Of a stretch of DNA of 61,352 nucleotides, positions 9,267 through 61,352 are shown piece after piece. The stretch is from the NCBI GenBank assembly GCA_003670925.1, contig QWQG01000182.1:1-61352 (forward strand), read 5' to 3'. Origin of the DNA: Planctomycetota bacterium. Lineage in GTDB: Bacteria; Planctomycetota; Planctomycetia; Planctomycetales; Planctomycetaceae. A program made the translations under genes and the position numbers. The notes below the pieces were generated by a model. The model saw only the letters and a list, made by a program, of their open reading frames with translations, made no database searches and was not told the origin of the DNA. Numbering within the stretch: the stretch's first letter is position 1; each line of letters begins with the position of its first letter.

Positions 9267-9608
9267 CGACCGCGATCCTGATCACTGGACTACGAATGTT
9301 CAACTCTTCGCACGGCGCCCAAATCCCAGCACGCATTAACCGCGAACACTCATCGATGCTGATCTTCCCTGACGGTGTGATTGCCATGGATCAATGTCGC
9401 TGAGTGTTTCCTGCGTTTGACACTTTCGGTTGCGGGCGAAGCTTACGCCATGTGCGAATCCTAGTCGGAGTTTACCTCATCGACCAGAATCAGCAACACG
9501 TGGAGAGCCAGTGAGTCGCTGCGGCTGGTGATTGTCGCTGGTCACGCCCTCCAAATTCGAAAAATGCCCAGCCGCGGGGATTTCGATCGAACGACAGCGG
9601 GAAGTCTC
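9267..9608. other. intergenic stretch, nothing recognised
   Basis: Lies between the FAD oxidoreductase stop and the beta-propeller start, both on the minus strand, so the beta-propeller promoter should be here. A short minus-strand frame starting MAITPSGK at 9387 runs into the beta-propeller gene in another frame; it has no family match and was not called. Confidence 0.45.
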
Positions 9609-10940
9609 TTACAACTTCACGGCTTCGGTGTAGTACCACTCGTTCGACTTGGACTGCGCCTGTTCGCCGGGAATGCCTCCCGTCCAATTACCGGGAGCCG
9701 TCTTGCCCTCGTTGTAGAGCGATTCCATTGGTTCCCATACGACATCCACTTTGTCTGTGAAAAGATCGCCGATCAACAGATCGGTGACGGTTCCCTGCAT
9801 CTCCGGGAAAGTTTTGATGAAGCGTCCGAAGCTGAAGCCATCGTAATACTCGCAGACCAGACGTCGCATTCGGTCAATGCCAGCGTTGAGAGCCGGGCCC
9901 CATTTGCCCAGTTGAGCTTCTGTGAGATCGTTCTTTTCGAGTCCCTCCACGACGACATCTGCTGCCATTTCGCCGGACTTCAATGCCAGCAAAACTCCGG
10001 ATGAATACAGCGGATCTAGGAATCCAAACGCATCACCAACCATGACATAGCCGTCGCCCGCAACTTTTGTCGAACGATAAGAATAGTCACGCGTCGCATG
10101 GTAACCAGAAACTCGTGTTGCGCCCGAGATACGTTGTTTAACCGCAGGGCATGCTTCGATTTCTTCGTGATAGACTTCTTCATGAGTTCCTCGCCCTTTG
10201 AACAGATAGTCAAACGGAGCGACAATGCCGATGCTCACGCGATTGTTGTGCAGCGGGATGTTCCAGAACCAACCGTTCTTGCTCTCGGTCTGCAGCACCA
10301 CCGTGGCTCCTTCGTCACGACCCGTGTCGCGATAGGCACCTTCCCAGTAAGTCCAGATCGCACCCTTGTTCAGGACGGGATCCCAGATTCGGAGTTTGAG
10401 ACGATTCATCAACATGCCACTTTGACCACTGGCATCCACAACGACTTTGGCGTTCACCTGTGCCGTCGTCCCATCGGGCCGCTGAATTCGAATGCCCGTG
10501 GCCCGCTCACCGTCAAACAGGACATCCAGCACGCGCACACCTTCGTGGGCATCCACGCCGTGTTCGCGGGCATTGTTGAGCAGCATCAAGTCGAACTCAC
10601 TGCGTTCGACTTGCCATGTCTGTGAGCACTCATGCGGCTTGTTCTCGGAGAAGTAAAACGGAGCGGACGATTTACCGTTGGCACTGACGAACTGCACACT
10701 GTGTTTATGCACAAAGTGGCTCTTCCGCATCTTGTCCAGCATATTGAGACGCTGAAGAACCCAATACGTTTCCGGAATCAATGATTCACCGATATGGTAG
10801 CGAGGAAATTTTTCGCGCTCAAACAACTGAACTTTGTAGCCCTTTTGGGCGATCAACGTGGCGGTGGTTGAACCAGCTGGCCCACCGCCAATTACCACGA
10901 CATCGCTTTCAATAATGGATTCGGGAACGTCGTTAAACAT
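9609..10940 (-). CDS. FAD-dependent oxidoreductase, halogenase/geranylgeranyl reductase-like
   Basis: A 443-residue flavoprotein. The N-terminus has the Rossmann FAD motif VVVIGGGPAGSTTA (Gly18, Gly20, Gly23), then FEREKFPRYHIGESL, a segment shared by flavin-dependent halogenases and geranylgeranyl reductases. GDAFGFLDPLYSSGV is the second FAD-binding motif. The halogenase WxWxIP motif is represented only by NGWFWNIPL. The substrate cannot be named; membrane-lipid reduction and hydroxylation or halogenation of an aromatic are both possible. The start at 10940 has GAGG six bases upstream; a 48-residue extension to 11084 lacks such support. It is read from a predicted promoter at 11113-11141 with an overlapping palindrome. 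Confidence 0.85.
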   Translation of the reverse strand: MFNDVPESIIESDVVVIGGGPAGSTTATLIAQKGYKVQLFEREKFPRYHIGESLIPETYWVLQRLNMLDKMRKSHFVHKHSVQFVSANGKSSAPFYFSENKPHECSQTWQVERSEFDLMLLNNAREHGVDAHEGVRVLDVLFDGERATGIRIQRPDGTTAQVNAKVVVDASGQSGMLMNRLKLRIWDPVLNKGAIWTYWEGAYRDTGRDEGATVVLQTESKNGWFWNIPLHNNRVSIGIVAPFDYLFKGRGTHEEVYHEEIEACPAVKQRISGATRVSGYHATRDYSYRSTKVAGDGYVMVGDAFGFLDPLYSSGVLLALKSGEMAADVVVEGLEKNDLTEAQLGKWGPALNAGIDRMRRLVCEYYDGFSFGRFIKTFPEMQGTVTDLLIGDLFTDKVDVVWEPMESLYNEGKTAPGNWTGGIPGEQAQSKSNEWYYTEAVKL

Positions 10941-49679: not shown

Positions 49680-50537
49680 TTACAACTTGACCTCACCGTA
49701 ACGCACTGAACGCCGACGCCGGATGATTGCTTTCGCAGATGCCTTCTTCCGATTCCTTGTACGCCCACCTTTTGCTAACTTACCAGTCGGACTACAAGGA
49801 TGACGCCCGCCTGAATTTCTGCCTTCACCACCACCCATCGGGTGAGCGGTTGGGTTCATGGCCGTGCCACGCACCCTCGGTCGAATACCCTTCCAGCGAT
49901 TACGACCAGCTTTGCCGATCACAATGCTGCTATGTTCTGAATTTCCCAAGACCCCAATTGTGGCACGACAGGAACCTGGTAACCGTCGCACTTCGCCGCT
50001 TGGCAAAGTCACCTGCGCCCAGCGACCTTCGCGAGCATTCAAGGTGGCCCCCACGCCAGCGCTTCGGCACAATTGACCACCGCGACCAGGTTGCATTTCT
50101 ATGTTGTGAACCATCGTTCCCGGCGGAATCGAACCCAGCAGCATACAATTCCCAACGTTCGGTTCCAGATTGACACCACTTTCAACGACCATTCCAGCCG
50201 CCAAACCTTCAGGTGCCAATATGTATCGTTTTTCGCCGTCAGCGTACTGCACTAGTGCGATGCGACTGCTGCGATTCGGATCGTACTCAATATGCGTAAC
50301 AGTCCCACGCACGCCGTCTTTATCTCGCTTAAAGTCGATCTTGCGATAGAGCCTTTTGTGGCCGCCCCCGCGATGCAGAGACGTAATCTTGCCTTGGTTG
50401 TTACGACCGCCTTTTTTCTTGGCGCGAATCGTCAACTCTTTTTCCGGGCGCTTCTTCTTGTCCGTGATTTCTGCGAAATCACTGACCGAAGCACCGCGGC
50501 GACCTGGCGTAACTGGTTTGTAAAATCGAATCCCCAT
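49680..50537 (-). CDS. rplB: 50S ribosomal protein uL2
   Basis: A 285-residue protein near the peptidyl-transferase centre. Landmarks are [35 protein letters not shown] and [18 protein letters not shown], which includes the conserved His. The ATG at 50537 is the family start; a GTG three codons upstream is possible. Confidence 0.98.
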
Positions 50538-50588
50538 GACACCCACTCATCCGCACGACCAAATTTTTTTCAGACTTCGACGCCAATC

Positions 50589-50897
50589 TTAAAAGAACGC
50601 AATGCGATCTTCGTCGTGTAGCTTGACCACTGCTTTCTTCCAAGACTTTGTATGCCCAACGACCATCTTGTGCCGGCGCGGTTTGCCGACGCGAGTCTGC
50701 GTTCGTACAGCCACAACCCGCACATTCCATAATTGCTGCACAGCTGCCTTGATGTCCGTCTTCGTGGCGAGCGGATGTACCTCGAACGAATACGCATTCA
50801 GCTTTTCAGAAAGATGCGTACCTTTCTCAGTCACCAACGGTCGACGTATGACCTGATGCGCTTCTAGACTGACACCACTCACAACAAATGAACTCAT
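50589..50897 (-). CDS. rplW: 50S ribosomal protein uL23
   Basis: A 102-residue exit-site protein and docking point for SRP and trigger factor. It has VIRRPLVTEKGT, ATKTDIKAAVQQLWNV and a KPRRHKMVVGHTKSWKKA segment. The ATG at 50897 is preferred over a TTG four codons upstream, with GGA seven bases before it. Confidence 0.96.
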   Translation of the reverse strand: MSSFVVSGVSLEAHQVIRRPLVTEKGTHLSEKLNAYSFEVHPLATKTDIKAAVQQLWNVRVVAVRTQTRVGKPRRHKMVVGHTKSWKKAVVKLHDEDRIAFF

Positions 50898-50936
50898 TGA
50901 ATCATCCAAACCTGAATTTTGCCTTGCAACTGCGAG

Positions 50937-51563
50937 TTACGCTTTGCGACCGAGCAGTCGATCCATTTCGCCGACCGTGATCACTAAATGACGCTGTCGG
51001 AGTAATGTGTATGCGTTAAGATCCGAGCCTGGTAGGATTTCCACGCCCTTAATATTTCTTGCTGACTTCCAAACATTTGGGTTGAGACCTTCAGTCGTCA
51101 ACAATACCGACTTACCAGTCAGTCCGACGGCATTCAGAAATTGGGCAACAACTTTTGTTTTCGGTGCGCTGCACTGCCAACTGTCTAGCATCACTGCCTG
51201 TGCGTCTTGAAATTTGCTGAGTAACGCCATTCGCATTGCTTTACGAATCGCCTTTTTCGGCATTCTGTAGTAATAATCACGCGGCTTCTTAGCGAATGCG
51301 TGACCGCCCCCACGCCGCACGGGCGTTCGAATTGCCCCGGCGCGAGCCCGGCCAGTGCCCTTTTGCTTGAAGAGCTTGCGCGTGCTACCGGACACCATGC
51401 CGCGTGACTTTGTTTGCACCTCACCTAAACGGCGATTTGCGTTATACATCACGACCGCATCGTGCAGCAACTGATTGCAAATGACGTCAGAAACTTCTGA
51501 CGGCTCAAATGCATAAGTGCCACACTCTGCACCAGCCATATTTCGAACAGGAACGGAAATCAT
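50937..51563 (-). CDS. rplD: 50S ribosomal protein uL4
   Basis: A 208-residue tunnel-constriction protein with RKLFKQKGTGRARAGAIRTP and GGGHAFAKKPRDYYYRMPKK. The start at 51563 (MISVPVRN) is the only ATG; it lies 17 bases after the rplC stop. In E. coli uL4 regulates its own operon; the sequence does not show whether that holds here. Confidence 0.97.
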   Translation of the reverse strand: MISVPVRNMAGAECGTYAFEPSEVSDVICNQLLHDAVVMYNANRRLGEVQTKSRGMVSGSTRKLFKQKGTGRARAGAIRTPVRRGGGHAFAKKPRDYYYRMPKKAIRKAMRMALLSKFQDAQAVMLDSWQCSAPKTKVVAQFLNAVGLTGKSVLLTTEGLNPNVWKSARNIKGVEILPGSDLNAYTLLRQRHLVITVGEMDRLLGRKA

Positions 51564-51580
51564 GAAATCACCGACCAATA

Positions 51581-52279
51581 TCAAATGCGATTCTTGACGG
51601 AACGACGCACCACCACATAACCACCGGTTGGGCCAGGGACCGCGCCCCGTACGAGCAATATGTTTGACTCGCCATCAACCCGCACCAGTCTGAGATTCTT
51701 AGATGTCACACGCTCGCAACCATAATGGCCCGGCATCTTAGTACCTGCGAGCACCCTAGAAGGGTCCGCACTTTGACCAATCGAACCACCGTGTCGATGC
51801 ACTCGTTTTGCACCATGGCTTGCTGGCATACCCCCGAAGTTATGCCTTCGCATAACCCCGGTAAACCCGCGACCTCGTGATACGCCTATGACGTCCACGA
51901 ACTTCAAGCCTTCCAGCAGTGTTGGTCCGACAACTTGACCCACTTCTAGGCCGTGAGCAGAGTCTTTACAGCGAAATTCGCGCACAAACCGCTTAGGTTC
52001 ACATTCAGCCTTTGCGATCGGGGCAACGCCAGCCATGCTGCGAGACTGTTGTCTTCGACCATTGAGTACGGCAACATGGCCGCGCACTGAGCGCGACGAC
52101 TTGGCTCGGGAACGATCAGCGAATCCGATCTGCACGGCATCGTAGCCGTCCCGATCCATGGAGCGGATCTGAAGCACAACGCACGGGCCAGCCTCAATGA
52201 CAGTTACAGGCACAATCACGCCGTCGGCGTCATAGACCTGAGTCATTCCAATTTTTCGACCAAGTAAACCAACTGACAT
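51581..52279 (-). CDS. rplC: 50S ribosomal protein uL3
   Basis: A 232-residue protein with GLLGRKIGMTQVYDADG, GRGFTGVMRRHNFGGMPASHG and HRHGGSIGQSADPSRVLAGTKMPGH. It is the second gene of the operon, 86 bases after rpsJ. Confidence 0.98.
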   Translation of the reverse strand: MSVGLLGRKIGMTQVYDADGVIVPVTVIEAGPCVVLQIRSMDRDGYDAVQIGFADRSRAKSSRSVRGHVAVLNGRRQQSRSMAGVAPIAKAECEPKRFVREFRCKDSAHGLEVGQVVGPTLLEGLKFVDVIGVSRGRGFTGVMRRHNFGGMPASHGAKRVHRHGGSIGQSADPSRVLAGTKMPGHYGCERVTSKNLRLVRVDGESNILLVRGAVPGPTGGYVVVRRSVKNRI

Positions 52280-52365
52280 AGCTCTGCACCCGCGAGCAGA
52301 AAGTAGAAAGAGACAAGCCTTAACGGCCCGCCAGAACAGACGACACTAATCACAATCAATCAAAA

Positions 52366-52692
52366 CTAGCTTGTAGCCGTTGCTTTGATTTTTATATCAA
52401 CCCCAGCCGGCAACGAGAGCTTGTTCAAAGCATCCACCGTCTTACCAGTGGGCTGAATGATGTCGATCAGCCGCTTATGCGTCCGAATTTCGAATTGCTC
52501 ACGTGACTTTTTGTCAATGTGAGGACTTCGAAGCACCGTGTACCGCTCTATTCGAGTCGGCAACGGAACCGGACCATGAACGATTGCCCCTGTACGCTTT
52601 GCTGTATCGACTATTTCCGCTGCAGACTGATCCAGCACGGAGTGGTCATACGCTTCCATCCGAATTCGGATACATTCTTCTGCACCAGCCAC
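52366..52692 (-). CDS. rpsJ: 30S ribosomal protein uS10
   Basis: A 108-residue protein, also the NusE antitermination factor. It has [50 protein letters not shown] and THKRLIDI. It starts at GTG (52692) with AAGG about ten bases upstream. It is the first gene of the operon, about 60 bases from the predicted transcription start. Confidence 0.97.
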
Positions 52693-52761
52693 CGCAAACC
52701 GCCTTGAGCAAACTAGTTACGTAAAACGAAACCGTACCCCCCGAGAAACGGGGAATCGCGG

Positions 52762-52790
52762 ATTGTAAAGTTCGTGTGTGTTTCTGTCAA
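52762..52790 (-). promoter_or_regulatory. sigma70-type promoter of the S10-spc-alpha operon
   Basis: On the minus strand TTGACA (52785-52790, perfect) and TACAAT (52762-52767, five of six) are 17 bases apart. Transcription would start near 52755 and give a leader of about 60 bases before the rpsJ GTG. The leader begins with a small hairpin, CCCCG-TTTCT-CGGGG (52739-52753). The promoter lies after the fusA stop, so fusA need not be part of this operon. Confidence 0.75.
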
Positions 52791-52842
52791 TCAATAGGCA
52801 ACAGAAATCACATACTTCGGCAGAACGTCTCTGAAACTGAAA

Positions 52843-54924
52843 TCACATCATGTGATCTACTGCACTTGATGGTGCAATTTCATAGCGGCAGGGCTGCATC
52901 GTGTAGGATGCCCGACCTTGAGAAAGACTCCGGATCTGATTTGAGTAGCCGAACATTTGGACGAGCGGCGCTTCACATTCAAGCACATGCAAGTCGCCAC
53001 GCCGGTTGGAATTCATGATGACTGCCCGTCGAGAATTCAAATCTGACTGGATATTTCCAAGGAATTCCTCGGGTGTTACAACCTCTAATGACATGATTGG
53101 TTCAAGGATCGCCATTTTACCGTCGCTCAAGACTTTTCGAAATGCATCCGCTGCTGCCATTCGAATGGCCACCTCGTTGCTTTCGCCTTCTCGATAACTG
53201 ACCGACGTGATGGTGAGACTCAAACCCATCATAGGGTTGCCGTAAACCCCGCCACCTTCCGCTTCTTTCTGAATAGATTCCAGCAGGATCTGGAGTGCTG
53301 GCTTGGGGAGTGCTTCGGTTGGGAGGTGATGTCCGACGATGATCCCGGTGGTTCCATCTTTGATTTCTTGCGCGCGGAGTGAGACGCCAAAACCAATGAC
53401 TCCCGAAGGCAGATGCTTAGAAAAATCGATGTTTACGGTGATTTCGCCAGTCAATCGTTCCCGATAGCTGACGCGCGGCTTGTGGAATCGCACCTTCAAA
53501 TTGAAATCACGCTCCATGCGGTGTTGAATGACTTCCAGATGCAATTCGCCCATTCCACTGATAATCGTCTGCCCGGTTTCGGCATTGGATTTGACGTGAA
53601 ATGTCGGATCCTGACGCTCCAGTCGCTTGAGTGTTTCATCAAGTTTTTTGCGGTCATTGCTCGATTCTGGCTCAATCGCCATGGAAATTACGGTTTCTGG
53701 AAACACGATGGATTCTAGGGCGATTGGCGACTGCGGGTCGCACAAAGTGTCACCTGTGGCAGAATCCCGCGGTCCAATAATGCCGCAGATGTCTCCTGTC
53801 TCGACTGTTTCCACTTTTTGGCGGGAATCAGACTGAATGTGCCAGAGTTGCGTAACCATCTCCTTCTTCCCGGTGCGTGGGTTCAACAGCTTGGAGTTCC
53901 CGGTGAGAACACCAGAATAGACACGCGCAAAATACAAATCGCCATGTGCTTCCGCTTGGACCTTAAACAACAGCACACAGACCGGTTCATCCACGGCAGG
54001 CTTGCGTACGCTCGTCTGGCCTACCTGTTTTCCGGAGGGAATCAGGCCTTCCACGGGCGGGCGGTCGAGTGGGCTTGGCAGAAAATCGCGGACACCATCG
54101 ATCACCGGCTGGACACCCACATAATCGAGCGATGCTCCGCAAAATACGGGGTATAGTGTGCCGCTGAGAGTCGCTTTTCGGATGGCCGCAATCACGACAT
54201 CGTGGGGCACGGAATCCCCTTCGATGCAGGCTGCCATGACGTCATCATCGATTTCTGACAATACGTCATACAGTTCCGACCGCCACAGAACAGCGTCTTC
54301 CTGATATTCTGAGGGAATCTCTTCCACGCGGAATTCTAGGCCTCTGGACTCAGCATCCCAGTACATCGCCTTCATTGTCAGAAGGTCGATCACACCCGTG
54401 AACCCGTCGGTATTTGTCGTCGGGCCAGCTCCGATCGGAATCTGCAACGGCAGCGTCTTACACTTCAATCGGTCGCGAATTTGATTTAAAACACGGTCAA
54501 AACTCGCCCCGATGCGGTCCATTTTGTTGATAAAACATATTCTGGGCACACCGTATTTCGTAGCCTGACGCCAAACGGTTTCACTTTGAGCCTCCACTCC
54601 CTCAACCGCGCTGAAGATCACGACCGCTCCGTCTAACACGCGCAGACTGCGTTCGACTTCCGCCGTGAAATCCACATGTCCCGGCGTGTCGATGAGATTG
54701 ATCGTGCAGCCTTTCCACGGACATGTCACCGCCGCCGAATAGATTGTGATGCCTCGCTGCGCCTCTTCAGGATCGAAATCGGTCTCGGTGGTTCCATCAT
54801 CAACGTTTCCCATCCGGTGCGAAGCCCCCGTGTAATAAAGGATTCGCTCGGTCGTGGTCGTCTTTCCGGCATCGATATGAGCAATAATGCCAATGTTTCG
54901 GATAGATTCAATTGCGCGAGACAT
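52843..54924 (-). CDS. fusA: elongation factor G with divergent domain IV
   Basis: A 693-residue translational GTPase. The G domain is complete: [13 protein letters not shown] (Lys21), RGITI switch I, DTPGHVDF and NKMD. Domain III has GMGELHLEV and domain [19 protein letters not shown] plus [18 protein letters not shown]. Domain IV lacks the SGGxGQYG block of ordinary EF-G; the same place reads [20 protein letters not shown]. Mitochondrial EF-G2, a ribosome-recycling factor, also lacks that block, and planctomycetes are known to carry two EF-Gs (spdEFG1 and spdEFG2). This may be the recycling-type paralogue. It lies upstream of rpsJ but without rpsL, rpsG or tuf. No obvious ribosome binding site precedes the ATG. 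Confidence 0.9.
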
Positions 54925-55248
54925 GAGCAGGAATGACCGTCAAAAGGAATGTTTCAGAAATCGCCAGACACATAAGGCGAGGGTAATACTACTCTCAGCA
55001 GTGGCAGAGCCGCGAACATTATCAGCTTCATCGATTGATGACTAATGTCCGAAACGACAGTGGAGAATTGTTCAAATTGAATGTGTCCGGCTGATTCTTG
55101 TTTGCGCAGTCCGATGCGATGATCGCGCGCGGGTGTGTTTTTTTGCGGAGACGGATCGCCAACGCCAATGGCTGAATGGCGAGATCGTCATTGTGACACC
55201 ACCCAAATCCCTTGCCGACGTTTCACTTTCGGTCAGTCGGTTGTTCCG
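54925..55248. other. intergenic region upstream of fusA, nothing recognised
   Basis: No gene, clear promoter or terminator could be supported in the 324 bases between fusA and the arrestin-like gene, both on the minus strand. In particular no tuf, rpsG or rpsL fragment is present. Confidence 0.5.
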
Positions 55249-56715
55249 CTAACCAGCATTTTCATCGATCTGCCGTGCGTTGATTCTGTTGTAAAGGCTA
55301 TCCCAGTCGATCAGCGTGAGCTGAGTCTGCCAGATGTCTCCGCGTCGAAGGTCATCGATCCCATTGTTCTGAGATTCGAGGGTGTTGACCTGAATTGCCT
55401 GATCGGTGCCGTCGATTGTGCCTGTCACAGTTTTTCCGTATTCGTACCCAGGATATTTGACCGATGCGCCCATCGATGAGGTGACTCGGTCGATCAAAAT
55501 GGCTGCTTCGAAGATCTGATCGGCTGCGTTGGAGACAAGATGCCCGCGCGCATTTCCGTGTCGCGGGGCCGCATTCATGGTAGCGACAAGCTGGAGAAAG
55601 TCGGACAACATTTTCTGAGTCGCCGATTCGGACGACTCTTCTTCTTCGTCGGATTCAAGCGATTCAGAAGCACACACTGGTGCAAGCGATGTGTGCGGCG
55701 TGCCCAGAAAAGATGCCGTGTTGTCGGGGGAAGTCATCGGCGGGCCATCCGTCAGATTCCTGAGAAACGATTCCGGCACGATCTGAATGTGCTGCGCCTG
55801 CGACCAGTCGGGAAACAAAGGCATATCAATCCGTACGGTAGCCCTCCATTGAATCGTGTTGTCCATTAAATCGAGGCTGAAGGCTGCCGTTGTCGGCAAT
55901 ACAAAAGTAAATTCTTCCGATACCAATTCGCCTGCCGTCAAGATGTCATTGGATCGCACGACCAGCTTCTGTTCCCAAATCTTGTGGGTGTGCGTTGTGG
56001 TTTTTGTTCCGCTCCCGGACGTGGCGGATTCCTCTCCCAGGAGCGTCACTCCGATGCTGTTGATCCGAAACCGCTTGCGCGGCTGGAACTGGATTCGCGC
56101 CGTCCATTGCTCGCCAGGGGCCACGACAACATGCGGAGTCGAAAGCTTTACTTCGCCCAAGCGACCAGCCAGCACATTTTTGCAAAATCGGCTGGGGCCT
56201 TTAATGAGCAGGAAGAATGCGAGCGAGAACATCATGGATAAGATCGCTAAAATGATGTTTGGCGGAGTTGAGGACTGACCTGCCGCTGGCGTCAGGGCGA
56301 TGATCTCATTTCTACTTCCGACAAAATGTGCCGGGGGTTCACCCGGCACAAGGACATAGTCTTCTTCGGCTTTAGGATCGAAGGCCCACGGAACATTCAC
56401 CTCGACTGACACGTAGTGATCTACGTTGAGCATCGTGCCATGATAAGTCACCGGATAAGTTGGTGACCGCAGTGAAAATGAAAACTCCAGCTCTTCGCCT
56501 GGCGAATACGATCTGGCGTCTTCCAATTCAACCGTCTCTTTCGTTCCGCCTGATACATTCCCGCGACCATGCGTCCGCCATTGGTGCGTCAATGTGACCC
56601 CGTTGCTCTTCATGGAGTTGTTGATCCGGATGTAAACCCGCCCCGTAACAGTTTCACCACCAGCGTACGTGCGGTCCTCACGATCGAATTTAATTTGCAG
56701 GTCGCACTTAGACAT
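55249..56715 (-). CDS. membrane protein with arrestin-like domains
   Basis: A 488-residue protein. Residues 1-130 look like an arrestin N-domain (DREDRTYAGGETVTGRVYI, later LEFSFSLRSPTYPVTYHG). A single transmembrane segment follows at about 153-172 (NIILAILSMMFSLAFFLLI). Residues 180-320 look like a second arrestin-type domain (VVVAPGEQWTARIQF, EEFTFVLPTTAAFSLDL). An acidic Ser/Glu-rich linker (LESDEEEESSESA, about 365-380) leads to an unassigned C-terminal region. Bacterial arrestin-fold proteins include Spo0M; a membrane-split version is unusual. The start at 56715 overlaps the upstream ATPase gene by eight bases, with AGGA nine bases before. Fold assignment is by sequence impression only. 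Confidence 0.65.
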   Translation of the reverse strand: MSKCDLQIKFDREDRTYAGGETVTGRVYIRINNSMKSNGVTLTHQWRTHGRGNVSGGTKETVELEDARSYSPGEELEFSFSLRSPTYPVTYHGTMLNVDHYVSVEVNVPWAFDPKAEEDYVLVPGEPPAHFVGSRNEIIALTPAAGQSSTPPNIILAILSMMFSLAFFLLIKGPSRFCKNVLAGRLGEVKLSTPHVVVAPGEQWTARIQFQPRKRFRINSIGVTLLGEESATSGSGTKTTTHTHKIWEQKLVVRSNDILTAGELVSEEFTFVLPTTAAFSLDLMDNTIQWRATVRIDMPLFPDWSQAQHIQIVPESFLRNLTDGPPMTSPDNTASFLGTPHTSLAPVCASESLESDEEEESSESATQKMLSDFLQLVATMNAAPRHGNARGHLVSNAADQIFEAAILIDRVTSSMGASVKYPGYEYGKTVTGTIDGTDQAIQVNTLESQNNGIDDLRRGDIWQTQLTLIDWDSLYNRINARQIDENAG

Positions 56716-57319
56716 CCTGAATATTCCTGAGCTGCTGAAAGGTGTCGTACATCGCATGTTCCATGCTGCGAATATCTGAACCAAACTGCGCGAATAGTTT
56801 CGAGGCTGTGGAAATCGTGATCGCCGGAATCTGTCCGTCAGCACGCCGCGCAGCCTGCACCCTCGCGTTGAGAAGTGTATGAACACGTAACTCGTCGGTG
56901 AATTGATTTGCGGCGACTGTGAGGATGGGCCGACCGGCCCGCCGAAGGGCATTTTCGAAATTCTGATGAGTTCCCAAGATTAACTTCCGATCTGTTCTAA
57001 ACGTCTGCCAGCGTTGCCGCCGAGTTAAGCGTTGGGCTTCGTCGATCAGCAATGGCTCTCCCAATTGAGGAATCGCAGGGCGTTGTCCCTCCGGAAGATG
57101 GACGTAGGCATTATTGGCAAAATGCGTGGCAAGCGCCAGCAGGTGAGTTGTCTTTCCAAATCCCTTTTCTCCGATCACTTGCACGACCGACCGCGGCAAT
57201 GCCAGATGCCGCAGCGCTGCGTCGCAGTCCACAATGGCCCCCGCTGTCCGTTCAGCAACTGTCAGCTCACCAAACGGATTGCGCCGCAAATTCAAATAAG
57301 AAAAAGACAAGGCTGTCAA
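56708..57319 (-). CDS. AAA-type ATPase (ExeA/TniB-like)
   Basis: A 203-residue P-loop ATPase: Walker A GEKGFGKTTHL (Lys56), Walker B LLIDEAQRL (Asp93-Glu94), and a sensor-like TVAANQFTDELR. The opening LNLRRNPFGELT resembles the start of ExeA-type AAA proteins. No ATG precedes the conserved part; the TTG at 57319 is chosen because GAGGTG lies about six bases upstream. A TTG at 57379 is also possible. The stop overlaps the arrestin-like gene's ATG by eight bases, so the two proteins are made together and probably act together. Confidence 0.75.
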   Translation of the reverse strand: MTALSFSYLNLRRNPFGELTVAERTAGAIVDCDAALRHLALPRSVVQVIGEKGFGKTTHLLALATHFANNAYVHLPEGQRPAIPQLGEPLLIDEAQRLTRRQRWQTFRTDRKLILGTHQNFENALRRAGRPILTVAANQFTDELRVHTLLNARVQAARRADGQIPAITISTASKLFAQFGSDIRSMEHAMYDTFQQLRNIQDV

Positions 57320-57412
57320 GCAGCACCTCAAAGAGCGGTGGACAATCCTAATTCGAGTTAGTATGAGACATGATATCAAAGTGGTCAGATTGTCACAGGC
57401 AAAGGGGATTGC

Positions 57413-58774
57413 ATGCGATCAGCAAAATTCAGGCAACTCATGTCCGAAGTCAGCCGACGCCGGATGCTGCAGCTCGGCGCGGCAGGTCTGCCGGGATTGT
57501 TGAGTGCGCGGTCGCTGCACGCGGCGACGGATAAGACTCTGGTTGCCAAAGCCGATCACTGCATCGTGTTGTTTTTGAACGGCGGGCCTAGTCATCTAGA
57601 CATGTGGGACATGAAGCCGGAAGCCGCCGCAGAAATACGCGGCGAATTCGCGCCGATTTCCAGCAGTCTGCCGGGAGTTCCCGTCTCAGAACATCTGCCG
57701 CGGCTTGCGCAACAGATGCACCGCACGACGTTGATTCGGTCCATGCATCACAGCGTCAATAATTCGCACGCCGCCGCGGTTTATGCCGCGTTGACAGGAC
57801 ATGATCGAGGTGAGCAGGGTGGTGGTGCAAAGCCGTCGGATCATCCGTCGCCAGGTTCTGTGATGGCCAAGCTGCGACCGGCCGCCAATCGTACGTTGCC
57901 TTATATCTCGCTGCCGTACAAAACCAAAGAAGGCGCGGGCGGACCGCTGCAGCCTGGATTTCTTGGCGGCTTCATGGGGCCGACATTTGATCCCTTCTGG
58001 GTCCTCAACAATCCTGATGCCGCAGACTTTCACGTCGATAATCTCGCGTTGCCTGCGCCCGTGACACCAGCACGCATGATTGATCGCTCGCGATTGTTGT
58101 CAGACCTCGGACGCGGACTTAAGATTAGCAACGAATCGTCGTTGACGGCGATCGATGACTTCCAATCGCGCGCGTTTGAACTGCTGACCTCCGATGCCGC
58201 TCAGCAGGCGTTTGATCTGAATCGGGAAACTCCAGAAATGCGGGCTCGTTACGGACGCAATATTTACGGGCAGAGTACTCTGCTGGCCCGCCGCCTCGTT
58301 GAATCAGGAACGCGATTTGTCACGCTGTCATGGGCTCCGGATGCCAACGCGACTTGGGATACCCACGGCGACAATTTCAACAAGCTGAAGAAAATCTTGC
58401 TGCCGGAGTTCGACGCTGCCTGCAGCAGCCTGTTGCAGGATTTAGACGATCGTGGTCTGCTGGAGCGAACGCTCGTCTGTGTCCTAGGCGACTTTGGGCG
58501 AAGTCCCAGAATCAACGCCAACGCGGGTCGCGACCATTGGAACTCGTGCTACACAGTCATGCTGGCCGGAGCCGGAATTCGGCAAGGTTTTGTCTATGGT
58601 GCCAGCGACCGAACAGGTTCCGTGCCGGCTGAATCACCGGTCAGCCCCGGTGACGTGATGGCGACAATTTATCGTCTGCTCGGCGTGCAATCGACCACGC
58701 AGATCCTTGATTCCCTCGGACGACCGCACGAAGTCGTGCCCCAAGGCCGGGTGATCAGCGAGATCATGGCGTAG
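57413..58774 (+). CDS. DUF1501 Tat-exported protein
   Basis: A 453-residue DUF1501 protein. The Tat signal is SRRRMLQLGAAGLPGLLSARSLHA at about 14-37; the mature part opens HCIVLFLNGGPSHLDMWDMKPEAAAEIRGEF and later has CVLGDFGRSPRINANAGRDHWN. It resembles the gene at 30047 but the two are clearly diverged. As there, the usual DUF1549/DUF1553 partner gene is absent. The ATG at 57413 follows AAGGGG by about five bases. It diverges from the AAA ATPase gene with fewer than 100 bases between. Confidence 0.93.
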   Translation: MRSAKFRQLMSEVSRRRMLQLGAAGLPGLLSARSLHAATDKTLVAKADHCIVLFLNGGPSHLDMWDMKPEAAAEIRGEFAPISSSLPGVPVSEHLPRLAQQMHRTTLIRSMHHSVNNSHAAAVYAALTGHDRGEQGGGAKPSDHPSPGSVMAKLRPAANRTLPYISLPYKTKEGAGGPLQPGFLGGFMGPTFDPFWVLNNPDAADFHVDNLALPAPVTPARMIDRSRLLSDLGRGLKISNESSLTAIDDFQSRAFELLTSDAAQQAFDLNRETPEMRARYGRNIYGQSTLLARRLVESGTRFVTLSWAPDANATWDTHGDNFNKLKKILLPEFDAACSSLLQDLDDRGLLERTLVCVLGDFGRSPRINANAGRDHWNSCYTVMLAGAGIRQGFVYGASDRTGSVPAESPVSPGDVMATIYRLLGVQSTTQILDSLGRPHEVVPQGRVISEIMA

Positions 58775-58879
58775 GTCCTTTCTGCCGGAAGAACCTATCC
58801 CGGCGCGCTGGGAGATCGATGCTTACTTCGTTACGCTACGATGCCACCGGAAAATTCGAAACGATAGGAATCACTGTTC

Positions 58880-59914
58880 ATGAACCGCCGACGTCTTGGA
58901 AACAGTCCGCTCACCGTCACCGACATCTGCATGGGCACGATGACCTTCGGAGTTCAGTGTGATGAGAAACTCTCCTTTGAAATCATGGATCGTGCCTACG
59001 AGGCCGGGATTGATTTCTACGACGCTGCCGAGATGTATCCCGTCCCACCGACGATCGAGTTGTTCGGACGCACAGAAGAATTTGTCGGTCGCTGGCTAAA
59101 GACAAAGCCACGTGAATCGGTGATCATTGCTACTAAGATTACGGGCCCCGCTCACGGTTGGTTCGTGCCCCCAGTTCGGCATGGTCATTCGGCACTTGAT
59201 CGACTGCAGATCATGCGGGCCGTGGAAGCCAGCCTGCGCCGCTTGCAGACAGACTACATCGATCTGTATCAGACGCACTGGCCCGATCACGGTGCCCGTT
59301 ACGAAGACGTCCTTGAACCACTGACCAAATTGGTGAAGCAGGGCAAGATTCGAGTCATCGGAAGTAGCAACGAAACCTGCTGGGGGCTCATGAAGAGTCT
59401 CGCTGCTGCCGAAAAATATGATCTCTGTCGCTACGATACGGTGCAAAATAATTTCAGTCTGATCAATCGCCGCTGCGAAAGTGAACTGGCTCAGGTTTGT
59501 CGCCGCGAAAACATTGGTCTGCTTCCATTTTCACCACTGGGCGGCGGAGTCCTCACCGGAAAATACATCAACGGCGATCCGCCGGGTGCCCGCTTCACCG
59601 AATACCGCAAGCTGGGTGAACGCCAGCAGAAACTCGCCGATCGATTCCTTAACAATCGAGTCTCCGAAACCGTCAATCGCCTGAAAGTTATTGCCGACGA
59701 TCTGGGGATCACGCTCACCGCAATGTGCGTGGCGTGGAGCAAACAGCACGATTTTGTGACTTCAACAATTATCGGGGCTACCACCGTCGCTCACCTGAAT
59801 GAAAGCCTTGCGGCAGACGGCCTGATCCTCGACAAAGAGACTCTCCGGCGCATCGACGAGATCGACGTGGCGATTCCGAATCCCATGAAAGAAGACGGCC
59901 TGCGACGCTTGTGA
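58880..59914 (+). CDS. aldo/keto reductase
   Basis: A 344-residue NADPH-dependent oxidoreductase of TIM-barrel fold. The catalytic tetrad is Asp48 and Tyr53 (FYDAAEMY), Lys86 (IATKI) and His133 (YQTHWPDH). SSNETCWGL, FSPLGGGVLTGKY and the late IIGATTVAHLNES are cofactor-side motifs. It is closest in feel to the Tas/YghZ group. Substrate unknown. The next gene (SDR) converges on it with 16 bases between. Confidence 0.94.
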   Translation: MNRRRLGNSPLTVTDICMGTMTFGVQCDEKLSFEIMDRAYEAGIDFYDAAEMYPVPPTIELFGRTEEFVGRWLKTKPRESVIIATKITGPAHGWFVPPVRHGHSALDRLQIMRAVEASLRRLQTDYIDLYQTHWPDHGARYEDVLEPLTKLVKQGKIRVIGSSNETCWGLMKSLAAAEKYDLCRYDTVQNNFSLINRRCESELAQVCRRENIGLLPFSPLGGGVLTGKYINGDPPGARFTEYRKLGERQQKLADRFLNNRVSETVNRLKVIADDLGITLTAMCVAWSKQHDFVTSTIIGATTVAHLNESLAADGLILDKETLRRIDEIDVAIPNPMKEDGLRRL

Positions 59915-59930
59915 AGCGCTGCATGTCGTC

Positions 59931-60716
59931 CTACGAATGCATCACGCAGCCGCCGTCCACGTTGATCGTCTGGCCCGTCACTTCGCTGGCTCGCGCACTG
60001 CACAGAAAGACGATCATCGCCGCGATGTCATTAGGCTGCTGCCAGCGTCGTAGCGGAATCACCTGATGAATTTTGGCTGCTGCCCAATCTGCATACGATT
60101 GCCGTTTTTCTGGTGGCTGTTGGTCGTGCCACGATTTCCAGACGGATTCATTCAACGGCGTCTTTACCATCCCTGGACAAACGGAGTTCACGCGCACGCC
60201 GGATGCTGCGAGATCCTTCGCCATGCATTGCGCGAAATTGATATTCGCTGCCTTGCTCGCACTGTACGGCGGGTCCGTCTGCGATCCCATTTGACCGGCA
60301 ACGCTCGACAGAAAAACAATCACCCCTGCCCCACGAGACTGCATCGCCGGTCCGGCCACATGAGCCACATGCACCATCCCCAGGATATTGACATGCAAAA
60401 CTTTTTCCCACGCCGATACGGGAACGCGAGTAAACGGAAACCCGAAGTGCCCGGAACCAATCGCCGCAGCGTGTACGAGGATTTCTACGGGCCCCAACTG
60501 CGCTTCTGTCTCCCGCCATGCGGCTTCCACGGCTGTCAGACTTGTGACATCCACCGACTGGATCATCTCGGCCCCAACCGTCTCTGTGACCGCTATGTCC
60601 CAGACCGCAACGCGAACTCCTTCCTGCGCCAACAACCGTACCGTCGCCGCACCAATCCCACTCGCCCCACCGGTCACAATGGCCACTTTTCCAAGAATGC
60701 CAAGATCCAAATTCAA
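59931..60716 (-). CDS. short-chain dehydrogenase/reductase
   Basis: A 261-residue NAD(P)-dependent enzyme with classical SDR motifs: TGGASGIG (15-22), the NNAG position replaced by VHAAAIG, active Ser138 in FLSSVAG, and YSASK (Tyr151, Lys155). The closing TGQTINVDGGCVMHS is typical. An acidic residue after the second strand (VWDIA, Asp40) suggests preference for NAD. It converges on the aldo/keto reductase. Confidence 0.94.
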   Translation of the reverse strand: MNLDLGILGKVAIVTGGASGIGAATVRLLAQEGVRVAVWDIAVTETVGAEMIQSVDVTSLTAVEAAWRETEAQLGPVEILVHAAAIGSGHFGFPFTRVPVSAWEKVLHVNILGMVHVAHVAGPAMQSRGAGVIVFLSSVAGQMGSQTDPPYSASKAANINFAQCMAKDLAASGVRVNSVCPGMVKTPLNESVWKSWHDQQPPEKRQSYADWAAAKIHQVIPLRRWQQPNDIAAMIVFLCSARASEVTGQTINVDGGCVMHS

Positions 60717-60752
60717 TCTCCTTTAAAATTTCCTGACTCTACCGGATTCTAT

Positions 60753-60802
60753 GTGCATTCAGGAAAAACGGATTTATAACGTGCATTCAGGCCCAACGGG
60801 CC
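60753..60802. repeat. direct and inverted repeat cluster (planctomycete-type REP)
   Basis: GTGCATTCAGG occurs at 60753-60763 and 60781-60791, 28 bases apart. The second copy runs into GGCCC-AAC-GGGCC (60790-60802), a five-pair hairpin, then CGGCGCTATGTCAGCCTAGG. The latter sequence is, as I recall, a dispersed repeat in planctomycete and verrucomicrobial genomes. Confidence 0.65.
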
Positions 60803-61199
60803 GGCGCTATGTCAGCCTAGGGCATCGCCCCAAGGAAGAAAACTGAAGACAGATCTTAAAAGACGATTCAAAACATTCGATGTCGGTGCCGTGGACATTC
60901 AGGTCTGCGCGCTCGGCAAATCCTCCGTGAGATTGTGCGGCCCTCGTATTTCTAATTTGATAACGGCACGCACGATTGGAACAATCCCCTCTCTGAGCAG
61001 CGTACGCAAGGAATTTCCGGAAGTCCACTGACAGCCCGTCTGCGGATCCGTTGGGTGCAGGCTCAAAACACCGAAGTAAACATTCGCCGAAGGCGTGGGC
61101 CGCTTGCGCAGCGTCAAGAACAAAACTGAGCATTTTTCTATCGCAGCCACAGTCAGCAGCCGAAAATGGTGCGGGCGGGACGAAGTCCGGTCACTCCGG
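60803..61199. other. intergenic region, nothing recognised
   Basis: After the repeat cluster no gene could be supported, although open frames exist on the minus strand. The region is probably the 3' flank of the element at the right edge. Confidence 0.45.
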
Positions 61200-61352
61200 T
61201 CAGGATGAGTCGATTTGCCGTTGATCGATGGTCGAATTCTGCAATTCGGACAGGCGATCCGGCGACATGTTCCATGGTAAAAATTCGGAAACGTCGGTCG
61301 GGGCTTTGCCGCCGGAATTGGCACATGCTTCTAGGTACAGCATCAACCAGCG
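61200..61352 (-). CDS. C-terminal 50 residues of a probable IS66-type transposase, cut by the window edge
   Basis: On the minus strand the frame is open from the right edge to a TGA at 61200-61202. It reads WLMLYLEACANSGGKAPTDV, then FLPWNMSPDRLSEL. The AYLxACAxAGGxxPxDxxxFLPWN pattern is what I recall from one branch of IS66 transposase C-termini. Without the catalytic core this remains tentative. If correct, an insertion sequence extends to the right of this window. Confidence 0.5.
   Translation of the reverse strand, partial: RWLMLYLEACANSGGKAPTDVSEFLPWNMSPDRLSELQNSTIDQRQIDSS

Follow-up and report, generated by a model that had tools for sequence, protein, structure and literature searches.

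What can an ATPase and an arrestin-like protein do together at a bacterial membrane, and are the two partners at all? This question is raised by a locus in contig QWQG01000182.1 of a Planctomycetota bacterium (assembly GCA_003670925.1), whose whole stretch of 61,352 nucleotides is called the window below. On the minus strand of the window, the gene of an AAA+ ATPase (56708..57319; 203 amino acids, delimited by its open reading frame (ORF), an AlphaFold2 model and a 49-row alignment) is followed by the gene of a membrane protein of the arrestin clan (55249..56715; 488 amino acids comprising an N-lobe, a membrane helix, a C-lobe, a linker and a C-terminal domain). The ATPase gene runs from TTG (57319) to a TAA stop codon at 56708-56710, and the ATG of the arrestin gene lies at 56713-56715. 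The eight shared nucleotides (56708..56715, ATGTCTAA) had been pointed out in an earlier reading made from the sequence alone (the sequence-only reading) and are indeed there. TTG 57319 is the likeliest start of the ATPase because a sister genome has an in-frame TAA immediately 5' of the same TTG. Since the ORFs overlap, the ATPase and the arrestin are probably translated together.

In eukaryotes, Vps26 and the adaptors with an arrestin fold organise membrane traffic; the bacterial part of the clan is known mainly from Spo0M. We conclude that the two genes very probably encode one undescribed machine, and we consider it rather probable that this is a membrane-anchored Vps26-like adaptor run by an AAA+ switch, i.e., a single membrane-bound, ATP-driven machine. 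A membrane-bound Vps26-like scaffold tied to an AAA+ ATPase would give the bacterial clan a partner, an energy source and a testable mechanism. The sequence-only reading knew of no described bacterial system joining these parts, and our search of the open-access literature found no bacterial system of arrestin and ATPase either, preprints and subscription journals lying outside its coverage. The components belong to known superfamilies; we file the joined system as new, having neither known nor found a described bacterial system that joins both parts. The earlier observation is thereby confirmed, and its interpretation is partly supported.

Conservation of the gene pair

The arrestin alignment was scanned against GTDB genomes, and 54 named loci were fetched by two arrestin peptide patterns; some of them are closely related, and two (L097 and L098) come from the same metagenome-assembled genome. 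The ATPase gene adjoins the arrestin gene in 49 of the 54; in 48 it lies upstream, no more than 780 nucleotides away, and in one (L113) downstream. This is the side-by-side arrangement that the sequence-only reading had proposed to look for in homologues. With start codons chosen by a script, the ORFs overlap by 8, 14, 17, 26 or 35 nucleotides in 35 of the 48 loci that have the ATPase upstream. Among 99 genomes, the window's own and its relatives, 11 contain full-length or nearly full-length matches to both proteins, always adjacent and in the order ATPase, then arrestin. By comparison of coordinates, all 19 ATPase matches with E<1e-60 in 170 genomes of the family adjoin arrestin matches. In 297 genomes of the class, where adjoining means a distance within about 0.9 kb, the same is true, among the matches listed, of 16 of 16 ATPases and, conversely, of 16 of 17 arrestins with E<1e-70, and of 33 of the 44 ATPase places when weak ones are included.

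The association was also found when the search was started from the other partner. The ATPase alone was searched against genome samples from three phyla, those of L113, L116 and L120 (235, 240 and 111 genomes; E<1e-15), and 15 of the 17 new loci have an arrestin ORF within the locus, the arrestin match being partial in L203 and weak in L207, L227 and L228; this count excludes loci in genomes that the arrestin search had already revealed (L187-L196) as well as L218, the other half of the L208 gene. Weaker ATPase matches (L209-L217 and L220-L224) are accompanied by an arrestin in 4 of 14 cases (L209, L210, L211 and L220) and by none in ten, and the matches L229-L253 were left out of this check. 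Gene trees of the two proteins over 47 shared loci agree (patristic r 0.88; 30 of 44 splits in common; no conflict at support of at least 0.9), and part of this agreement reflects shared species history. The arrestin and ATPase genes are inherited as a unit.

Records of Rhodopirellula, Stieleria, Rubripirellula and Fuerstiella are among the 54 loci, as are, outside planctomycetes, records labelled Myxococcales, Trueperaceae, Lentisphaeria and Schekmanbacteria, and the pair was also found in genome samples of three of those non-planctomycete phyla. Because both proteins are conserved side by side across phyla, their pairing is not due to chance. The sequence-only reading had further suggested a special tie to the internal membranes of planctomycetes; such a tie is not supported, and the argument is weakened because the pair is not confined to planctomycetes. 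In the window's own genus it is patchy (7 of 18 genomes, including one in which a contig end truncates it).

The architecture of the pair varies. In distant relatives within the class the arrestin is split: one protein comprises the arrestin C-lobe, hydrophobic segments and a DUF3592-type N-terminal part (PF12158, whose cut-off is exceeded in L168 and missed in L177), a separate ORF of about 120-240 residues encodes the N-lobe, and then, in most cases, comes the ATPase. Twenty-one such split-lobe loci were drawn, by hand and not at random, from 28 loci fetched around weaker arrestin or ATPase matches, and the ATPase lies within 400 nucleotides in 16 of them. All 16 of these ATPases carry the P-loop and NPF, 13 match the Walker B pattern hhhDGxEQ, and the split-form ATPase of L168 passes the AAA_22 cut-off (28.2 versus 27 bits). 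In two Deinococcota-sample genomes, the arrestin N-lobe and then the ATPase make up a single ORF, with E-values for the N-lobe and the ATPase of 7.4e-12 and 2.4e-20 in L227 and of 3e-6 and 2.2e-17 in L228; the fusion ORFs were searched among 1000 shuffles, of which the best reached E 0.4 and 2.5. An ORF with a C-lobe match lies just upstream of the fusions (E 2.7e-8 in L227). Because these exact modules form one polypeptide, the fusion of N-lobe and ATPase is the strongest hint at what would be a direct contact between them. Together with the congruent trees, the fusions support a functional union of the two genes.

A number of observations weigh against a single machine. Five of the 54 named loci (L082, L110, L111, L115 and L117) have no ATPase beside the arrestin. 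The genomes of L110 and L117 each hold a complete pair elsewhere, the genome of L111 and L115 has an ATPase close to a contig end, and in the genome of L082 no ATPase was found on search. The strong class arrestin without an adjoining ATPase is in G078; 11 of the 44 class ATPase places have no adjoining arrestin among the matches listed (G014, a remnant, G024, G065, G100, G214, G254, G329, G358, G362 and two in G367); L201 and L225 are the two of 17 ATPase-seeded loci that have no arrestin; 5 of the 21 split-lobe loci (L061, L065, L172, L174 and L183) have no ATPase; and the L228 fusion has a borderline arrestin match upstream of it (E 8.8e-4). Matches to the arrestin profile are also commoner in the class than those to the ATPase profile (105 versus 43 of the 297 genomes), an excess that is due in part to weak performance of the ATPase profile on split forms and may be due in part to arrestins without an ATPase. 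Two apparent partial forms, a match to the C-terminal domain only in G015 and one to the N-lobe only in G048 (C179), were dismissed since contig ends cut both.

Some variants of the arrestin gene deserve separate mention. Tandem arrestin ORFs stand beside one ATPase in Myxococcota-sample genomes (L204, L205 and L208) and, at a contig end and with no ATPase, in L111 of the same sample; it is possible that tandem arrestins are hetero-oligomeric scaffolds. In L066 (G057), positions 9275-10225 encode a two-lobe arrestin of Spo0M-like form that has neither a P-loop neighbour nor an evident hydrophobic segment. The pair also occurs on contigs labelled Candidatus Kuenenia stuttgartiensis (L067 and L073), with arrestin identities of 75% and about 41%; these contigs place in the window's genus, and the organism label looks doubtful.

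Domains and fold of the two proteins

Models and residue counts are based on alignments of 51 arrestins and 49 ATPases, the window being counted in both, and all coordinates below are of the minus strand. The window's membrane protein belongs to the arrestin clan and has a two-lobed arrestin fold. Its N-lobe (residues 4-123, 56347..56706) is delimited by modelled strands E4-10 to E115-123 and matches Arrestin_N; within it lies the signature WRTHGRGN (residues 46-53, 56557..56580), of which W46, T48, H49, G50, G52 and N53 are present in 51/51 sequences. The C-lobe (residues 190-312, 55780..56148), defined by the model and a structure match, retains E229, G234, G236 and N286, likewise in 51/51. 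Pfam cut-offs are exceeded for Arrestin_N (48.4 versus 24.9 bits), Arrestin_C (31.8 versus 27.7) and Spo0M (25.9 versus 23), and missed for Vps26 (17.3 versus 27); family-wide, at E<=0.001, these four are matched by 51, 41, 37 and 4 of the 51 members, respectively. In the AlphaFold2 model (mean predicted local distance difference test score (pLDDT) 89.0), two beta-sandwich lobes are separated by a 33-residue helix (residues 154-186), and a linker (327-359) is of low confidence. The best solved match is retromer Vps26 (5f0l_B; Foldseek E 9.2e-17), to which both lobes align together in one structural match (Z 18.5, root-mean-square deviation (rmsd) 5.2, 256 residues aligned over 1-316). It counts against pressing this likeness that an rmsd of 5.2 is loose and that the predicted template modelling score of 0.65 makes the packing of the lobes moderate at best. 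The two arrestin-like domains described in the sequence-only reading are thus upheld by Pfam, by the modelled lobes and by the Vps26 match. Neither outcome that this reading had named as refuting it, a predicted structure lacking the arrestin fold or homologues that are not neighbours in other genomes, was seen. A third domain had escaped its list of parts: a C-terminal b-b-b-a-b-b domain (residues 365-482, 55270..55623), OB-like by the order of its elements only, whose region (about 365-488) is found in 43 of the 51 proteins. This domain, whose own fold was not searched, has no significant match in Pfam or NCBIfam, where one chance-level overlap with Rgp1 (E 0.11) was seen.

The protein differs from each of its known relatives. 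What separates it from Vps26 is a membrane segment and the ATPase partner. Arrestin_N and Arrestin_C matches above the cut-offs and structural Z scores of about 14-15.5 link it to eukaryotic alpha/beta-arrestins, which are soluble adaptors and are not known to have an AAA+ partner gene. Spo0M proteins are soluble and two-lobed and lack a membrane segment, whereas one or more hydrophobic peaks separate the lobes in all 51 members of the present family, and the window arrestin has, in addition, an ATPase partner and a C-terminal domain. The likeness to Spo0M consists in the two arrestin lobes and the prokaryotic origin (PMC2515105), besides the Pfam match. As far as the accessible parts of the two papers go, Spo0M and Vps26 are placed in the arrestin clan and a signalling role of Spo0M is speculated upon (PMC2515105), Spo0M is linked to cytoskeletal proteins and FtsH, and no partner ATPase gene is mentioned for it (PMC5325327); the pairing described here appears in neither.

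The single transmembrane helix between the lobes that the sequence-only reading proposed holds for the window copy (residues 154-186, 56158..56256; one hydrophobic peak) and not for the family, in which two peaks are seen in 44 of 51 proteins, three in one and one in six. Five of the six one-peak proteins carry an uncharged stretch of 27-35 residues, whereas that of the window copy is only 18 long, and the window segment is 10 residues shorter than in the 75%-identical sister. Because most relatives show two hydrophobic segments between the lobes, both lobes are likely cytoplasmic. This is the simpler reading for the family, also because other loci have the N-lobe and an ATPase in one protein and because the segment is, on average, flanked by positive residues (mean K/R 1.1 before and 2.5 after it). 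The window's own copy may be an exception: its single peak with positive residues after it would, taken alone, imply lobes on opposite sides of the membrane, which speaks against the family's probable topology.

The hallmarks of AAA+ proteins are all present in the ATPase. Walker A (GEKGFGKT, residues 50-57, 57149..57172) has G53, G55 and K56 in 49/49 sequences, Walker B (LLIDE, residues 90-94, 57038..57052) has D93 in 49/49 and E94 in 47/49, and R184 (56768..56770; 49/49) is a putative sensor-2 arginine. H118 and R153 are as invariant (49/49) as K56, D93 and R184, and an NPF motif (residues 14-16, 57272..57280) is found in 47/47 of the rows that have residues there. The model (mean pLDDT 88.9) consists of the AAA+ module only, and neither the model nor Pfam revealed a winged helix or a peptidoglycan-binding part. 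The best structural rows are ORC/Cdc6 (Z 12.6, rmsd 3.2, 188 aligned; Z 12.0, rmsd 3.4, 191 aligned), closely followed by clamp loaders, DnaA, MuB (Z 10.8) and p97 (Z 11.2). The protein is an AAA+ ATPase, predicted to hydrolyse ATP, with ORC/Cdc6 as the closest fold of its model; against a narrower placement stand the 50 AAA+ rows within 2 Z units, which do not set the ORC/Cdc6 clade firmly apart.

The label "ExeA/TniB-like" given in the sequence-only reading is therefore right as to an AAA+ ATPase and otherwise loose, as no Pfam cut-off is reached and the top folds are ORC/Cdc6. AAA_22, at 19.7 versus 27 bits in the window, is the commonest weak label in the family (27 of 49 members at E<=0.01). 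ExeA/GspA are AAA_22-type ATPases with a membrane helix and a peptidoglycan-binding domain, and the window ATPase has neither. As to TnsC/TniB, TnsC is among the Foldseek rows (E 9.8e-4) and MuB among the structural ones (Z 10.8), tied with many AAA+ proteins, and the ATPase alignment has a weak sequence match to Tn7 TnsC (E 0.0067, ranked below several ABC proteins); no transposase partner or transposon setting was found at the window's pair. From all these proteins, ORC/Cdc6 and MuB included, the window ATPase is set apart by being a bare AAA+ module with an arrestin partner.

Proposed mechanism and rival explanations

In the mechanism that we propose, the ancestral membrane segment would be a hairpin, so both lobes would lie on the cytoplasmic face as a Vps26-like adaptor, with the N-lobe as the docking site of the ATPase. 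By binding and hydrolysing ATP, the assembly would alternate between gripping a client and letting it go. The likeliest clients are tails or loops that other membrane proteins expose to the cytoplasm, and the outcome would be that membrane proteins are clustered, retained or remodelled. The suggestion of the sequence-only reading that the pair remodels or sorts proteins at the membrane is plausible. The folds, the retained catalytic residues, the linkage of the genes and their fusion are shown by computation. We infer from them that the proteins form a complex, which is well supported, that they sit on the cytoplasmic side, that ATP switches them and that their clients are membrane proteins; it weighs against the proposed machine that its client, localisation and biochemistry are predicted from sequence. 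Judging from the bare AAA+ module and from the initiator and loader ATPases in the top structural rows, we think it likelier that the ATPase acts as a ligand or assembly switch, in the manner of ORC/Cdc6, TnsC and MuB, than that it unfolds proteins by threading; the hhhDGxEQ Walker B of the split forms was counted on the same side. That the system is a general bacterial counterpart of arrestin and retromer adaptors, ATP-switched, membrane-anchored and of interchangeable architectures, with clients selected and then placed, clustered or recycled, is a doubtful extension. Relatives of Rhodopirellula, Stieleria and Rubripirellula strains are in culture, and records of named strains (Rhodopirellula baltica BR-MGV, Stieleria and Rubripirellula obstinata) carry the pair, so experiments are feasible.

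Two rivals retain a working partnership of the two proteins. The arrestin could recognise damaged or unassembled membrane proteins, with the ATPase extracting or unfolding them, possibly for a protease encoded elsewhere. The tethering of an AAA+ ATPase at the membrane and the presence of p97 in the structural rows suit such quality control, as does the statement in PMC5325327 that Spo0M of the arrestin clan is an FtsH substrate and pulled down proteases. The bare 200-residue module, with initiator and loader ATPases in its top rows, speaks against it, and no protease or chaperone is prominent among the shared neighbour clusters, which makes this explanation less probable still than the extension just named. 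Lower again we rank a signalling or defence switch, i.e., a STAND-like ATPase kept inactive on the membrane arrestin until infection or stress sets it free; the C-terminal or DUF3592 parts would serve as its sensors or effectors. The hhhDGxEQ Walker B of the split forms resembles the STAND type; one split form has a NACHT match just below the cut-off (25.4 versus 26.7 bits), and patchy presence in the genus with a remnant in G014 would fit. PADLOC, however, returned weak P-loop matches only, for six proteins (best E 0.002), no effector domain was found, and a search of phages and plasmids with the arrestin protein (the ATPase was not searched there) gave no match. Nor do the Pfam-identified neighbours in the window suggest defence: the genes of ribosomal protein L3 and elongation factor G on one side, and DUF1501, aldo/keto reductase and short-chain dehydrogenase genes on the other.

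The membrane-anchored adaptor also has to be weighed against readings that deny a partnership. Two unrelated co-transcribed genes might keep their order by vertical inheritance alone, and Pirellulaceae loci do share a wider order, including a gene with VTT and bPH domains (in the tested representative) in 22 loci and a GATase_5-representative gene in 19. The pair, however, persists while other neighbours change between lineages, the trees are congruent across phyla, and order and fusion vary (upstream, downstream, split and fused); this reading is strongly disfavoured by the fused and rearranged forms and is very improbable. The least probable of all is a remnant of a Tn7/Tn5053-like transposon, with a stranded TniB/TnsC-type ATPase, or a module carried on mobile elements. 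It would be in keeping with an AAA_22-like ATPase that has NPF and the weak Tn7 TnsC match, and with mobile-gene pieces near three loci: an IS110-type transposase beside the L227 fusion (2-394) and pieces of phage integrase close to arrestins that lack an ATPase, in L082 (7659-7997) and L057/L110 (L057 9858-10433). No transposase, however, is among the window's tested neighbours (elongation factor G, DUF1501, aldo/keto reductase and dehydrogenase), none was recognised among the commonest shared neighbour clusters, whose representatives were partly tested, the partner is an arrestin with no phage or plasmid match, and active-site residues are kept in 49 ATPases.

Neighbouring genes and loss of the pair

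No conserved third gene was found across lineages, and most relatives do not share the window's flanking genes, with the exception of DUF1501, a scattered cluster of which was seen in 7 of 21 sources. A tRNA search of window positions 50000-61352 found none. Another genome of the genus, G014, still has the DUF1501 and aldo/keto reductase genes, at 84-85% identity (L062 9672-12376 versus window 57250-59914); homology stops at window position 57250, only the 5' end of the ATPase gene is left as a fragment with stops, and no arrestin was found in the searched genome. The pair seems to have been lost together in G014, and it is an accessory, not an essential, function in the window's genus.

Near split-form genes we noticed a protein with an RNA polymerase alpha C-terminal domain, identified by a Pfam match in L177 and by similar sequence in L181; its copy in L182 was deduced from a neighbouring reading only. 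The VTT/bPH, GATase_5 and 2-oxoglutarate dehydrogenase genes of Pirellulaceae loci were considered as members of the system and rejected, as their recurrence looks like plain synteny of the Pirellulaceae order. The VTT/bPH membrane protein (e.g., L096 3830-5089) is probably near the pair by synteny, yet it is membrane-traffic-like.

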